Below are positions 42,628 to 55,381 of a stretch of DNA of 64,000 bases, piece by piece. The position numbers were made by a program, and so were the translations under genes. Every line of letters starts with the position of its first letter. Position 1 is the stretch's first letter. A model generated the notes under the pieces. The model was not told where the DNA came from and made no database searches. It worked only from the letters and a program-made list of their open reading frames with translations. This DNA comes from Amycolatopsis sp. (GTDB lineage Bacteria > Actinomycetota > Actinomycetes > Mycobacteriales > Pseudonocardiaceae): NCBI RefSeq assembly GCF_025464955.1, contig NZ_JAODNM010000094.1, positions 1-64,000 of the forward strand, in the 5' to 3' direction.

Positions 42628-42645
42628 ATACCGACTGGTTGGTAT
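42628..42645. promoter_or_regulatory. Isolated TetR-type operator (ACCGAC-TG-GTTGGT)
   Basis: ATACCGACTGGTTGGTAT is an 18-nt near-palindrome with one mismatched pair. It matches the operators at 46633, 49313 and 55366, but it lies between two convergent gene ends (stops at 42581 and 42681) where no promoter is expected. Confidence 0.55.
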
Positions 42646-42680
42646 GTCACGCTGCTGACGTGACGTCAAAGCAGCCGTTG

Positions 42681-43292
42681 TCAGCGGCGCGCGCCCAGCA
42701 TGCTCAGGACGAGCTCGCCGTATTCGCGGCCGAGCTCGACCGGGGTCTGGCGCGAGCGCTCGTTGTACCAGCGCGCGACGTCGACGCCGAGCGAAAGCAC
42801 CGCCCGCGCGGCCGTGCGCGGATTGCTCACGGTGAACGCGCCCGACGCGGTGCCTTCGGCGATCACCTCGCGCACCAGCCGTTCGATGCGCCGGCGCAGC
42901 TCAGCGACGACTTTGTACTCCTCTTCCGGCAGGGCCTGGAGCTCGTACTGGACCACTCTGGCCACTGTGTGCCGCCGCGCGTGCCAGGCGACGAAGTCCT
43001 CCACGATCAGCTGAATCCGCTCGACCGGTTTGTCGACCCGCGCGAGGACGTTCTCGACCAGCGCGAGCGTGTTCTCGTGACCGCTGCGGCTGATCGCGAA
43101 CAGCAGCGCGGCCTTCGACGGGAAGTGGACGTAGAGCGCGGCGGGACTCATCCCCGCGCCGCTCGCGATATCCCGCGTGGTGGTGGCGTGGTAGCCCTGG
43201 CGCGCGAACGATTCGACCCCGGCGAGCATCAGCCGCCTCGCCGCCTCCGGCTGGACTTCCGGCCACAGCTCGGCGGACAGGGACACAGGCAT
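42681..43292 (-). CDS. TetR-family regulator, lipid-catabolism block
   Basis: 203 aa from ATG 43292 behind GAGAGGAG. The HTH is TRDIASGAGMSPAALYVHFPSKAALLFAISR, preceded by RRLMLAGVESFARQGYHATT. The ligand domain holds HTVARVVQYELQALPEEEYKVVAELRRRIERL, typical of TetR proteins of the TetR_C_33 or KstR2-like type that bind acyl-CoAs. Divergent from two SDR genes; the shared gap holds TAAGCGAGCGCTTA, 68 nt from its start. It is the likely reader of that palindrome, also found before the crotonase and the FabG-like genes. Confidence 0.85.
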   Translation of the reverse strand: MPVSLSAELWPEVQPEAARRLMLAGVESFARQGYHATTTRDIASGAGMSPAALYVHFPSKAALLFAISRSGHENTLALVENVLARVDKPVERIQLIVEDFVAWHARRHTVARVVQYELQALPEEEYKVVAELRRRIERLVREVIAEGTASGAFTVSNPRTAARAVLSLGVDVARWYNERSRQTPVELGREYGELVLSMLGARR

Positions 43293-43360
43293 CGCACACT
43301 CCTCTCAGACGCGAGGCCTGCCGGTGGCGGGCTTGACAGGACGCCTCGATCCTCACAGTG

Positions 43361-43374
43361 TAAGCGAGCGCTTA
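43361..43374. promoter_or_regulatory. Operator TAAGCG-AG-CGCTTA
   Basis: Perfect 6-2-6 palindrome TAAGCGAGCGCTTA between the divergent tetR gene and the SDR pair. Related sites lie at 45948-45961 and 56689-56702, each immediately upstream of a fatty-acid-type gene. The preceding -35-like TTGACA at 43333 would place the site close to the +1 of the SDR operon. Confidence 0.65.
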
Positions 43375-53089: not shown

Positions 53090-54312
53090 TTCGCGTCTCC
53101 GACGGGTCGGTACTTCTTGAGCTCGCGGTGCGCCATCGAGCGCTTGTGCACCTCGTCGGGACCGTCGGCGAGCCGCAGCGTGCGGGCGTGCGCCCACAGC
53201 GAGGCCAGCGGGAAGTCCTGGCTGACGCCGCCGGCGCCGTGCGCCTGGATGGCCTTGTCGAGGATCCACTCGACGGTGATCGGAGTGGAGATCTTGATGG
53301 CCTGGATCTCGGTGTGCGCGTTCTGGTTGCCGACGGTGTCCATCAGCCACGCCGTCTTGAGCACCAGCAGGCGCTGCAGCTCGATCTTGACGCGGGACTC
53401 GGCGATCCAGTCCTGCACCACGCCCTGCGACGCGATCGGCTTGCCGAACGCCTCCCGCGAGAGGGTGCGGCGGCACATCAGTTCGAGCGCGCGCTCGGCC
53501 ATGCCGATCAGCCGCATGCAGTGGTGGATACGGCCGGGGCCGAGGCGGGCCTGCGCGATCGCGAAACCGCCGCCTTCCTCGGTGAGCAGGTTCTCCGCCG
53601 GCACGCGGACGTCTTCGAAGATCACCTCGGCGTGGCCGCCGTGGTCGCCATCGGAGTAGCCGAACACGTGCATGCCGCGCTTGACCGTCATACCCGGGGT
53701 GTCACGCGGGACCAGGATCATGCTCTGCTGGCGGTGCGGCGCCGCTTCGGGATCGGTCTTGCCCATCACGATGAAGATCTTGCAGTTCGGGTTCATCGCG
53801 CCGGAGATGTACCACTTGCGGCCGTTGATGACGTATTCGTCGCCGTCGCGCCGGATGCTGGTGGCAATGTTGCGGGCGTCCGAGGACGCGACGTCCGGCT
53901 CGGTCATCGCGAACGCGGAGCGGATCTCGCCGTCGAGCAGCGGCTGCAACCACTGCTTGCGCTGCGCTTCGTTGCCGAACCCGGCCAGCACTTCCATGTT
54001 GCCGGTGTCCGGGGCGGCGCAGTTCAACGCCGTCGGCGCGAGGCTCGGGCTGCGACCGGTGATCTCGGCGAGCGGCGCGTACTGCAGGTTGGTCAGACCG
54101 GGGCCGTGCTCACCGGGGAGGAAGAAGTTCCAGAGCCCCTGCTTACGGGCTTCGGTTTTCAGCTCCTCGACGACAGGTGTTGTCGTCCAAGGGTTTTCCC
54201 GTTCGGCGAGCTGCTCGGCGAAGACCGGCTCGGCCGGGTAGACGTGCGAGTCCATGAACGCGAGCAGCTTTTCGCGCAGCTCCTCGGTCTTGGCGTCGAA
54301 GGCGAATTCCAT
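53086..54312 (-). CDS. Acyl-CoA dehydrogenase, ACAD10/11-like (first ACAD of operon)
   Basis: 408 aa from ATG 54312. Motifs: AFAMTEPDVASSDARNIATSI (FAD/substrate), KWYISGAMNPNCKIFIVMGKTD, REAFGKPIASQGVVQDWIAESRVKIE and the ending IQAHGAGGVSQDFPLASLWAHARTLRLADGPDEVHKRSMAHRELKKY. The last motif marks the ACAD10/ACAD11 branch. In eukaryotic ACAD10/11 this domain is fused to an aminoglycoside-phosphotransferase-like kinase; here the kinase is the separate gene directly upstream, with overlapping TAATG. The pair processes 4-hydroxyacyl-CoA in known systems. Confidence 0.9.
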   Translation of the reverse strand: MEFAFDAKTEELREKLLAFMDSHVYPAEPVFAEQLAERENPWTTTPVVEELKTEARKQGLWNFFLPGEHGPGLTNLQYAPLAEITGRSPSLAPTALNCAAPDTGNMEVLAGFGNEAQRKQWLQPLLDGEIRSAFAMTEPDVASSDARNIATSIRRDGDEYVINGRKWYISGAMNPNCKIFIVMGKTDPEAAPHRQQSMILVPRDTPGMTVKRGMHVFGYSDGDHGGHAEVIFEDVRVPAENLLTEEGGGFAIAQARLGPGRIHHCMRLIGMAERALELMCRRTLSREAFGKPIASQGVVQDWIAESRVKIELQRLLVLKTAWLMDTVGNQNAHTEIQAIKISTPITVEWILDKAIQAHGAGGVSQDFPLASLWAHARTLRLADGPDEVHKRSMAHRELKKYRPVGDAK

Positions 54313-55337
54313 TACTGCTCCTCTTTGAGAATCTCGTTGCCATGGGCGACCAGTGGGGCGACACCCGCGCCGACCTGTTCGAACCCGGAACCGACGGTCT
54401 GGCCTTTGCTGAACCGGAAGTAGATGCCTTCCAGGATCACGGCGAGCTTGAAGAACGCGAAGCCGATATACCAGTTGAGCTGGGAGACGTCCCGTCCTGA
54501 GCGCTCCGCGTACCGGGCGATGACGGCGTCGGTGCTGGGGTAGCCCGGTGCGGAGGTCGCGTTCGACACGAACGTCAGGTTCACCGCGCTGCGCTCGGCG
54601 TAGGCGATCATCAGCGCGAGGTCGGTGAGCGGGTCGCCCAGTGTCGACATCTCCCAGTCGAGCACCGCGGTGATCCGGTCGTCGCTGTCGACGAGGACGT
54701 TGTCCAGGCGGTAGTCGCCGTGGATGATCGACGGCGCCCCGGACTCGGGCACCGACGCGGCGAGCCGGTCGTGCAGCTCGTCGATGCCCGGCAGGTCGCG
54801 GCTCCTGGACCCGTCGAGCTGCTTCTTCCAGCGGCGCAGCTGCCGCTCGAGGAAGCCGTCCGGACGGCCGAAGTCGTCGAGCCCGACCGATTCCGGGTCG
54901 ACGGAGTGCAGGTCGACGAGAGTGTCCACCAGCGAGTCGGCGATCGCTTTGGTCCTCGCCGGGCCGAGGGCGATGAGCTCTTCGGCGGTGCGGTACGGCG
55001 TCCCGGTGACGAACTCCATCACGTAGAACGGCGCGCCGAGGATGTCCTTGTCCTCGCAGAGCAGCAGCGCTTCCGGCACCGGCACGGCGGTGGTGTGCAG
55101 CCCGGAGATGACGCGGAACTCGCGCTTCATGTCGTGCGCGGTCGGCAGGACGTGGCCGAGCGGTGGACGGCGGACCACCCACTGCGCCGCGGCGTCCCGC
55201 ACGATGTAGGTGAGGTTCGAGCGGCCGCCCTGCACGACTTCGGCGCTGAGTTCGCCGGTTGTGAGCCCGGGGCGGTGCTCGTCCAGGTACGCGCGCAACC
55301 GCGCCAAGTCGAGGCCCGGCGGGTCCGTTCGGCTCAT
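54312..55337 (-). CDS. APH-family kinase, 4-hydroxyacyl-CoA kinase-like
   Basis: 341 aa from ATG 55337. Protein-kinase-like fold of the APH/ChoK group: RSNLTYIVRDAAAQWVVRRPP, the Brenner motif SIIHGDYRLDNVLVDSDD (catalytic Asp) and VLDWEMSTLGDPLTDLALM (metal Asp). In ACAD10/11 and in bacterial relatives such a domain phosphorylates the 4-hydroxyl of 4-hydroxyacyl-CoAs so that the dehydrogenase domain can eliminate phosphate. The gene order kinase-ACAD matches that fusion. Aminoglycoside resistance is improbable. First gene of a four-gene operon; operator 29 nt upstream. Confidence 0.87.
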   Translation of the reverse strand: MSRTDPPGLDLARLRAYLDEHRPGLTTGELSAEVVQGGRSNLTYIVRDAAAQWVVRRPPLGHVLPTAHDMKREFRVISGLHTTAVPVPEALLLCEDKDILGAPFYVMEFVTGTPYRTAEELIALGPARTKAIADSLVDTLVDLHSVDPESVGLDDFGRPDGFLERQLRRWKKQLDGSRSRDLPGIDELHDRLAASVPESGAPSIIHGDYRLDNVLVDSDDRITAVLDWEMSTLGDPLTDLALMIAYAERSAVNLTFVSNATSAPGYPSTDAVIARYAERSGRDVSQLNWYIGFAFFKLAVILEGIYFRFSKGQTVGSGFEQVGAGVAPLVAHGNEILKEEQ

Positions 55338-55365
55338 TTCGTCTCCCTCGGTGTCGCGGCTATCG

Positions 55366-55381
55366 TACCGACCAGTCGGTA
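55366..55381. promoter_or_regulatory. Operator TACCGAC-CA-GTCGGTA before the APH/ACAD operon
   Basis: TACCGACCAGTCGGTA is a perfect 7-2-7 palindrome 29-44 nt upstream of the kinase ATG and 45 nt beyond the end of the MaoC gene. It is the most symmetric of the four sites. Confidence 0.72.

Follow-up and report, generated by a model that had tools for sequence, protein, structure and literature searches.

Does a single TetR-family regulator place a whole catabolic pathway under one operator? The question is raised by a 64,000-nucleotide stretch of Amycolatopsis sp. DNA (assembly GCF_025464955.1, contig NZ_JAODNM010000094.1, positions 1 to 64,000; hereafter the window). In this stretch a palindrome of the ACCGAC type, the A operator, stands near genes for an acyl-CoA ligase, a phosphotriesterase-like lactonase (PLL), a TetR-family regulator (TETR, gene tetR), a kinase and three acyl-CoA dehydrogenases (ACADs). 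A preliminary description had proposed one TetR regulon tying the whole pathway together. Comparison with related loci and genomes supports a single TetR regulon that unites the ligase-lactonase, tetR and kinase-ACAD operons, which share a conserved A site. In contrast, the short-chain dehydrogenase (SDR), enoyl-CoA hydratase (ECH) and SDR/MaoC genes carry the palindrome TAAGCR-NN-YGCTTA (the B operator), attributed to a second regulator, tetR2, which that description had missed. The earlier pathway interpretation is partly supported, and it was right in outline.

The A operator and TETR

The four sites of the form ACCGAC-NN-GTCGGT are present where they had been placed, two of them perfect and two with one change (Table 1). 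The site centres lie 18, 30 and 36 bp ahead of the start codons of tetR, the ligase gene and the kinase gene, respectively. The literal pattern ACCGACNNGTCGGT is exact in only two of the four. With up to two mismatches it is found at 17 places, where a mean of 8.0 is expected and 17 was reached in 1 of 100 shuffles. Eight of these places have no mismatch or one, namely the four main sites and positions 5220, 19494, 48085 (within the ligase gene) and 53098 (within the ACAD-1 gene). When the pattern was instead fitted to the main sites, giving ACCRACYRGTYGGT, six exact matches were obtained across the 9.2-Mb genome, of which four fall within this 12.75-kb stretch; the reversed control pattern has one. 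The expected number in 12.75 kb is 0.008, which gives a Poisson P of ~2e-10 for four copies of a pattern fitted post hoc; with one mismatch there are 57 copies in the genome versus 50 for the control, near background. Because ACCRACYRGTYGGT was fitted after the fact, the independent evidence for the A sites is their conservation. The genome scan, suggested earlier as a check, placed the remaining two exact copies at loci L008 and L009. These two loci, together with L001, L004 and L005, were left out of the regulon, since their A-like sites have no AT flanks and no cluster protein starts there. A distant ACAD similarity is present at L005 but lies away from the site.

Of 302 confirmed TETR relatives, the best 80 were placed on their loci, and the window was added as the 81st TETR; Amycolatopsis records make up the top 19 of these 80, with up to 85% identity. 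Upstream of each gene, with the window counted in, occurrences were tallied for each of the 4096 palindromic half-sites that have a two-base spacer. ACCGAC comes out on top for the genes of TETR (20/81), the ligase (19/22) and the APH-fold kinase (41/67). The search with mismatches excluded genes with fewer than 100 upstream bases and matches below set identity limits. An A site with at most one mismatch lies near the start of 34 of the 81 tetR genes, window included, and before 42 of the 67 kinase genes (28 exact), and an exact site precedes 19 of the 22 ligase genes, again counting the window. Conservation at the kinase promoter extends as far as CATACCGAC..GTCGGTAY. A conserved palindrome is found at the promoter of tetR itself and at the candidate target promoters, though not at every orthologue. 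The loci in relatives share kinship, and one of the search patterns, KGAMYHYF, sits in the TETR recognition helix. It lies inside the VTKGAMYHYF segment, so the invariance of that segment in all 81 sequences is partly built in.

A panel of 12 Amycolatopsis genomes, including the 9.2-Mb assembly of the window, associates the operator with TETR. TETR was found in 10 genomes, the kinase and tetR2 in all 12; absence of a regulator means that none was seen at the set E-value among up to 150 candidates scored per genome. Every one of the 10 genomes with TETR has an exact A site at the kinase promoter. The two that lack TETR do not, their best matches there having five mismatches (G010) and one mismatch (G001). 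This distribution makes it quite improbable that another TetR, PaaR-like or tetR2, reads the palindrome while TETR is merely a neighbour. The one-mismatch kinase site in G001, which lacks a TETR match, does favor such a reader, as do the TetR_C_24 domain common to TETR and tetR2 and the use of the same operator by PaaR and PfmR, by which its specificity is not unique. PF00440 and PF17932 both score above gathering in TETR and in tetR2. However, the exact site tracks TETR, whereas tetR2 is present throughout the panel and has a palindrome of its own in the enumeration, and A sites still precede tetR and SDRa in loci where no tetR2 was found. For these reasons tetR2 was rejected as the A reader, and TETR remains the favored one.

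The second-best Protein Data Bank match of TETR by sequence is 3vpr (E 4e-19), presumably the structure of PfmR, and it is equally the second-best match of tetR2. Another solved structure that matches TETR by sequence (E 2e-16) is KstR2, a regulator with an acyl-CoA ligand and a 14-bp palindrome in the same 6-2-6 layout; its half-site and pathway differ. PfmR (TTHB023) of Thermus thermophilus acts in phenylacetic and fatty acid metabolism and has the operator TACCGACCGNTNGGTN (PMC7022988; this and the papers below are cited from excerpts). It is alike in operator but has other target genes, and the protein similarity is modest. PaaR of Burkholderia cenocepacia is a TetR repressor with the operators ACCGACCGGTCGGT and ACCAACCGGTCGGT, from which phenylacetyl-CoA releases it (PMC2770484, PMC9493321). 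The half-sites and two-base spacer are those of the A operator, and the second sequence is identical to the site at 49315. The likeness is one of operators, and PaaR controls the paa genes, in contrast to the ligase, lactonase and kinase-ACAD operons here. When six spelled-out A operators were looked up in the literature searched, matches came only from the two PaaR papers. Queries on kinase operons, on levulinic acid with TetR and on the half-sites with TetR gave no actinobacterial regulon of this kind among the matches listed, in a literature with subscription papers mostly outside it. The ACCGAC operator is already known from PaaR and PfmR. None of the parts is of a new kind, but no example of this wiring appeared in the literature searched.

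Table 1. Positions of the operators and genes discussed, numbered within the window.
Feature	Position	Strand	Description
A operator	42630..42643	no strand	ACCGACTGGTTGGT, one change; no gene behind it here
A operator	46635..46648	no strand	ACCGACTGGTCGGT, perfect; precedes ligase-lactonase(-tetR) operon
A operator	49315..49328	no strand	ACCAACCGGTCGGT, one change; lactonase stop codon on one side, tetR start on the other
A operator	55367..55380	no strand	ACCGACCAGTCGGT, perfect; precedes kinase-ACAD operon
TETR	49340..49960	+	TetR-family regulator (TetR_N + TetR_C_24), proposed A-operator reader; domain and panel association
Kinase	54312..55337	-	APH fold, LvaA/ACAD11 kinase-domain type; structure-sequence matches
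ACAD-1	53086..54312	-	ACAD11/LvaC type, HCMR motif and catalytic Asp kept; alignment
ACAD-2	51890..53089	-	resembles pimeloyl-CoA dehydrogenase large subunit (pimC), below cut-off; profile match
ACAD-3	50757..51893	-	resembles IpdE2 and pimeloyl-CoA dehydrogenase small subunit (pimD), below cut-offs; profile match
Ligase	46672..48324	+	acyl-CoA ligase (AMP-binding), GTG start; profile match
Lactonase	48333..49313	+	phosphotriesterase-like lactonase, nearest solved structure 4if2; PF02126
tetR2	42681..43292	-	second TetR-family regulator, proposed B-operator reader; domains and own palindrome
B operator	43361..43374	no strand	TAAGCGAGCGCTTA, perfect; divergent tetR2/SDRa promoter
B operator	45948..45961	no strand	TAAGCGCTCGCTCA, one mismatch; before enoyl-CoA hydratase
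B operator	56689..56702	no strand	TAAGCAGCCGCTTA, one mismatch; before SDRc-MaoC genes
SDRa	43400..44182	+	short-chain dehydrogenase; sequence match
SDRb	44179..44970	+	short-chain dehydrogenase; sequence match
ECH	45079..45918	-	enoyl-CoA hydratase/isomerase; sequence match
SDRc	55889..56650	-	short-chain dehydrogenase; sequence match
MaoC	55426..55878	-	MaoC-like hydratase; sequence match

Enzymes of the kinase and ligase operons

Start and stop codons overlap along the kinase, ACAD-1, ACAD-2 and ACAD-3 genes, which suggests that the four form a single transcript. The kinase matches the kinase half of ACAD11 as well as 9o56/3dxp, and it retains the catalytic Asp and Asn of ACAD11, D220 and N225, whose roles are taken from PMC12440821. 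ACAD-1 aligns with the second half of ACAD11 (8v3u) at 447 bits, and beyond four ACAD11-like entries the next ACAD reaches 147. All of the residues R626, R631, H634, R637 and D753 (mouse ACAD11 numbering; the chain index is one lower) are retained in ACAD-1, and these are substrate-binding or catalytic in the mouse enzyme (PMC12440821). The kinase accordingly has the fold and both catalytic residues of the LvaA/ACAD11 kinases, and ACAD-1 has the HCMR motif, upstream Arg and catalytic Asp of the phosphate-eliminating LvaC and ACAD10/11 enzymes. Because the pair carries the ACAD11/Lva catalytic residues, ACAD-1 probably eliminates phosphate. Where a 4-hydroxyacyl-CoA kinase had been described together with three dehydrogenases, the residues specific for 4-hydroxyacyl-CoA bear out the kinase, but ACAD-1, which has them too, is of the phosphate-eliminating type, not a plain dehydrogenase.

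A close bacterial parallel is the lva operon of Pseudomonas putida, which encodes the kinase LvaA, the ACAD LvaC and the ligase LvaE for 4-hydroxyacyl-CoA (PMC12440821, PMC11342911). A kinase, a special ACAD and a CoA ligase occur together in both, all three being in the window, and a kinase and ligase of this type co-occur in 5 of the 12 panel genomes. In the lva operon the regulator is LvaR (PMC8714952), whereas the window has a pair of TetRs and, in addition, a lactonase and ACAD-2 and ACAD-3. For mammalian ACAD10/ACAD11 the same two activities are proposed and the active-site residues are conserved; there the activities are fused in one protein, whereas here they lie in separate overlapping genes.

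The matches of ACAD-2 to pimC and of ACAD-3 to pimD and IpdE2, although below curated cut-offs, point to dicarboxylic or ring-fission acyl-CoAs. They would fit a real regulon that serves, in place of simple 4-hydroxy acids or gamma-lactones, the breakdown of some branched, alicyclic or terpenoid acid by way of a 4-hydroxyacyl-CoA, as would the accessory nature of the lactonase and ligase. We regard such a substrate as possible though on balance unlikely; the residues of the kinase and ACAD-1 make a 4-hydroxyacyl-CoA step likely in any case.

The lactonase-like protein matches 4if2 at 438 bits and 2vc5 at 248 bits. Its HEH, Lys, two His and Asp columns, which we take to be the metal ligands, are identical to those of both structures in the alignments. 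With these His, Lys and Asp positions and a phosphotriesterase family domain it belongs with the PLLs, and its lactonase activity is predicted. Some PLLs hydrolyse gamma- and delta-lactones and some N-acyl homoserine lactones, and excerpts from PMC3468530 state that their natural role is unknown. That description leaves room for a promiscuous esterase or phosphotriesterase, or a quorum-quenching enzyme, outside lactone catabolism. We think this rather doubtful, since some PLLs do act on gamma-lactones (PMC3468530) and the lactonase occurs with the ligase in the same five panel genomes. Absence of the ligase here means that none was seen at the set E-value among up to 119 candidates scored per genome. 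The ligase and lactonase are an accessory pair.

In five relatives (L112, L118, L121, L123 and L157) an A site accompanies an esterase of the Beta-lactamase family, whose best NCBIfam match is LipL, below cut-off. This esterase may be another opener of esters or lactones.

tetR2 and the B operator

In the same enumeration TAAGCG-NN-CGCTTA is the top half-site upstream of tetR2 (23/25), SDRa (15/47) and SDRc (14/40), and TAAGCR-NN-YGCTTA has seven exact copies in the genome of the window versus none for its reversed control. The SDR, ECH and SDR/MaoC genes thus appear to be under tetR2 through the B palindrome, so that control of the pathway would be split. A literature search for the B motif gave no relevant report among the matches listed. 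The nearest solved structure of tetR2 by sequence is 3him (E 3e-37), named 'probable transcriptional regulator'.

The SDRa promoter distinguishes the two operators. All 22 loci with tetR2 have B there. Another 22 have no tetR2 in the fetched stretch, and among these A is present in 16 and neither operator in 6. In these six the A site lies ahead of the ligase gene in a ligase-SDRa-SDRb cluster. For B versus A the Fisher P is 4.5e-11, uncorrected for phylogeny, and many of the 16 A loci are Nocardiopsis. The count left out L021, L023, L027 and L040, where the sequence to the left of SDRa is too short, and SDRa matches below 60% identity; L023 has a one-mismatch A site upstream of SDRa. In G001 and G010 the SDRa promoter has B though tetR2 sits elsewhere in the genome, so adjacency is unnecessary. 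At the L029 ligase promoter both A and B are found.

Nine of the 12 genomes, that of the window among them, have a B-type site ahead of a distant ACAD gene (L105, L129, L133, L134, L138, L139, L141, L168 and L178). In the genome of the window such sites were seen before this ACAD at L105 (C30:12647) and before a thiolase gene at L109 (C96:8161), hinting at wider beta-oxidation control by tetR2. The thiolase was not kept as a B-regulon member, as no B site with a thiolase was seen in the 11 relatives. Also set apart were TAAGCA-NN-TGCTTA sites, because their neighbors are a P450-like gene and, in most cases, another TetR. A palindrome close to this form precedes an apparent cytochrome P450 gene at ten loci (L183 on contig C167 of the same genome, L130, L135, L136, L140, L143, L144, L173, L180 and L181), with another TetR gene alongside in 7 of the 10 (names assigned by eye). 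At five loci from Actinosynnema, Rhodococcus rhodnii, Kibdelosporangium and Actinocrispum (L041, L047, L050, L061 and L082), tetR leads a TETR-SDRc-MaoC-kinase-ACAD-1 run, and a one-mismatch B site lies between it and a divergent ECH gene. In these loci TETR may itself be under tetR2 control.

The fourth A site, at 42630, had been described as standing alone, and it does lie between two convergent genes. In the five named relatives L022, L024, L029, L032 and L036, the equivalent site is found just past the tetR2 3' end, ahead of a leftward gene for an MHS-type MFS transporter (5/5). The transporter is 72-100% identical to the L022 protein among these relatives, and it matches TIGR00883, a metabolite/H+ symporter model, at 390 bits (cut-off 443) and a shikimate transporter model, also below cut-off. 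Four panel genomes have a site of this type; the transporter is present in two (L113 and L122) and missing from two (L120 in G002 and L165 in G008). It is also missing from the window, and its best match in that assembly has only 42% identity. The window retains the same flanks around the site (GATACCGACTGGTTGGTATGTCAC), and the simplest reading of these sequences is a promoter left by a lost transporter gene. It is less likely that the site regulates the WYL gene or tetR2, as it precedes the transporter in all five named relatives and in two of the four panel genomes.

A proposed division of control

Taken as a whole, the explanation that we consider quite probable is an A regulon under TETR for the entry and phosphorylation of 4-hydroxy acids, with tetR2 controlling the neighbors. 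We infer that TETR is an acyl-CoA-responsive repressor that would bind as a dimer to (AT)ACCGAC-YR-GTCGGT(AY). When substrate is lacking, it would repress two operons, ligase-lactonase(-tetR) and kinase-ACAD, along with its own promoter, and in relatives the transporter and esterase as well. A 4-hydroxy acid would enter, possibly via lactone opening, and TETR would be freed from the DNA by the CoA ester of this acid or by a CoA intermediate further along. The kinase would then form a 4-phosphoacyl-CoA, from which ACAD-1 would remove the phosphate to give a 2-enoyl-CoA for beta-oxidation. Hydration and oxidation by ECH, SDRa/SDRb, SDRc-MaoC and the distant ACAD would be under tetR2 through TAAGCR-NN-YGCTTA. 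What the analysis shows directly is that the sites exist and are conserved, that each motif goes with its TetR and that the catalytic residues are present.

Several observations weigh against this explanation. No A site lies within the tested distance of 47 of the 81 tetR genes and 25 of the 67 kinase genes (some of them within operons whose site lies further upstream), and 3 of the 22 ligase genes have none. Among 34 exact A sites in relatives, 13 adjoin none of the tested genes, and the summed exact counts in 11 relatives are 34 versus 44 for the reversed control. For the B operator, exact counts over the 12 genomes are 39 versus 27 for the control (18 of the 27 from one genome), and the one-mismatch count in the genome of the window equals background (11 versus 12). 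L024 and L032, which account for two of these three ligase genes, and G007 (L167, where the site lies between ECH and the ligase) have a B-type site at the ligase promoter, with no A site found, so the ligase does not belong to the TETR side in every genome. The site beside tetR2 is kept in three assemblies that lack the transporter (the window, G002 and G008); another role is therefore possible, and a simple leftover is not the full explanation. Finally, all 12 genomes have the kinase, but searches for the lactonase and ligase found neither in 7 of them. Because of this distribution, lactone opening, proposed earlier as the start of the pathway, can be no more than an optional entry.

A more specific proposal, for and against which we find the case evenly balanced, is that the two TetRs partition one actinobacterial 4-hydroxyacyl-CoA pathway, TETR taking entry and phosphorylation and tetR2 the shared beta-oxidation, each presumably sensing a different CoA ester. 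SDRa/SDRb would have switched operators by lineage, with that of tetR2 where tetR2 adjoins and that of TETR where none was found nearby. If true, this change of allegiance is a natural operator swap. The breakdown of 4-hydroxy acids via a phosphorylated CoA intermediate has only recently been assigned to ACAD10/11 and the Lva enzymes. The locus would be an actinobacterial counterpart for which a regulator, an operator and a set of targets can be proposed, along with a likely lactone entry. It also offers a candidate regulatory switch in soil actinobacteria and a possible inducible promoter for hydroxy acids or lactones.

Two minor observations concern other DNA. Positions 46020-46493 of the window (minus strand) encode a 157-residue C-terminal remnant of an acetoacetate--CoA ligase, covering positions 501-655 of the 657 in the model. 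At E 1e-10 none of the 80 related loci has a match to it, and it looks like the leftover of an inserted or lost gene. At L103, on contig C130 of the same assembly, third-position GC is low for a high-GC genome (0.53-0.67 in the five frames listed). That stretch is possibly foreign DNA or contamination, which for the assembly stands at 5.4%.

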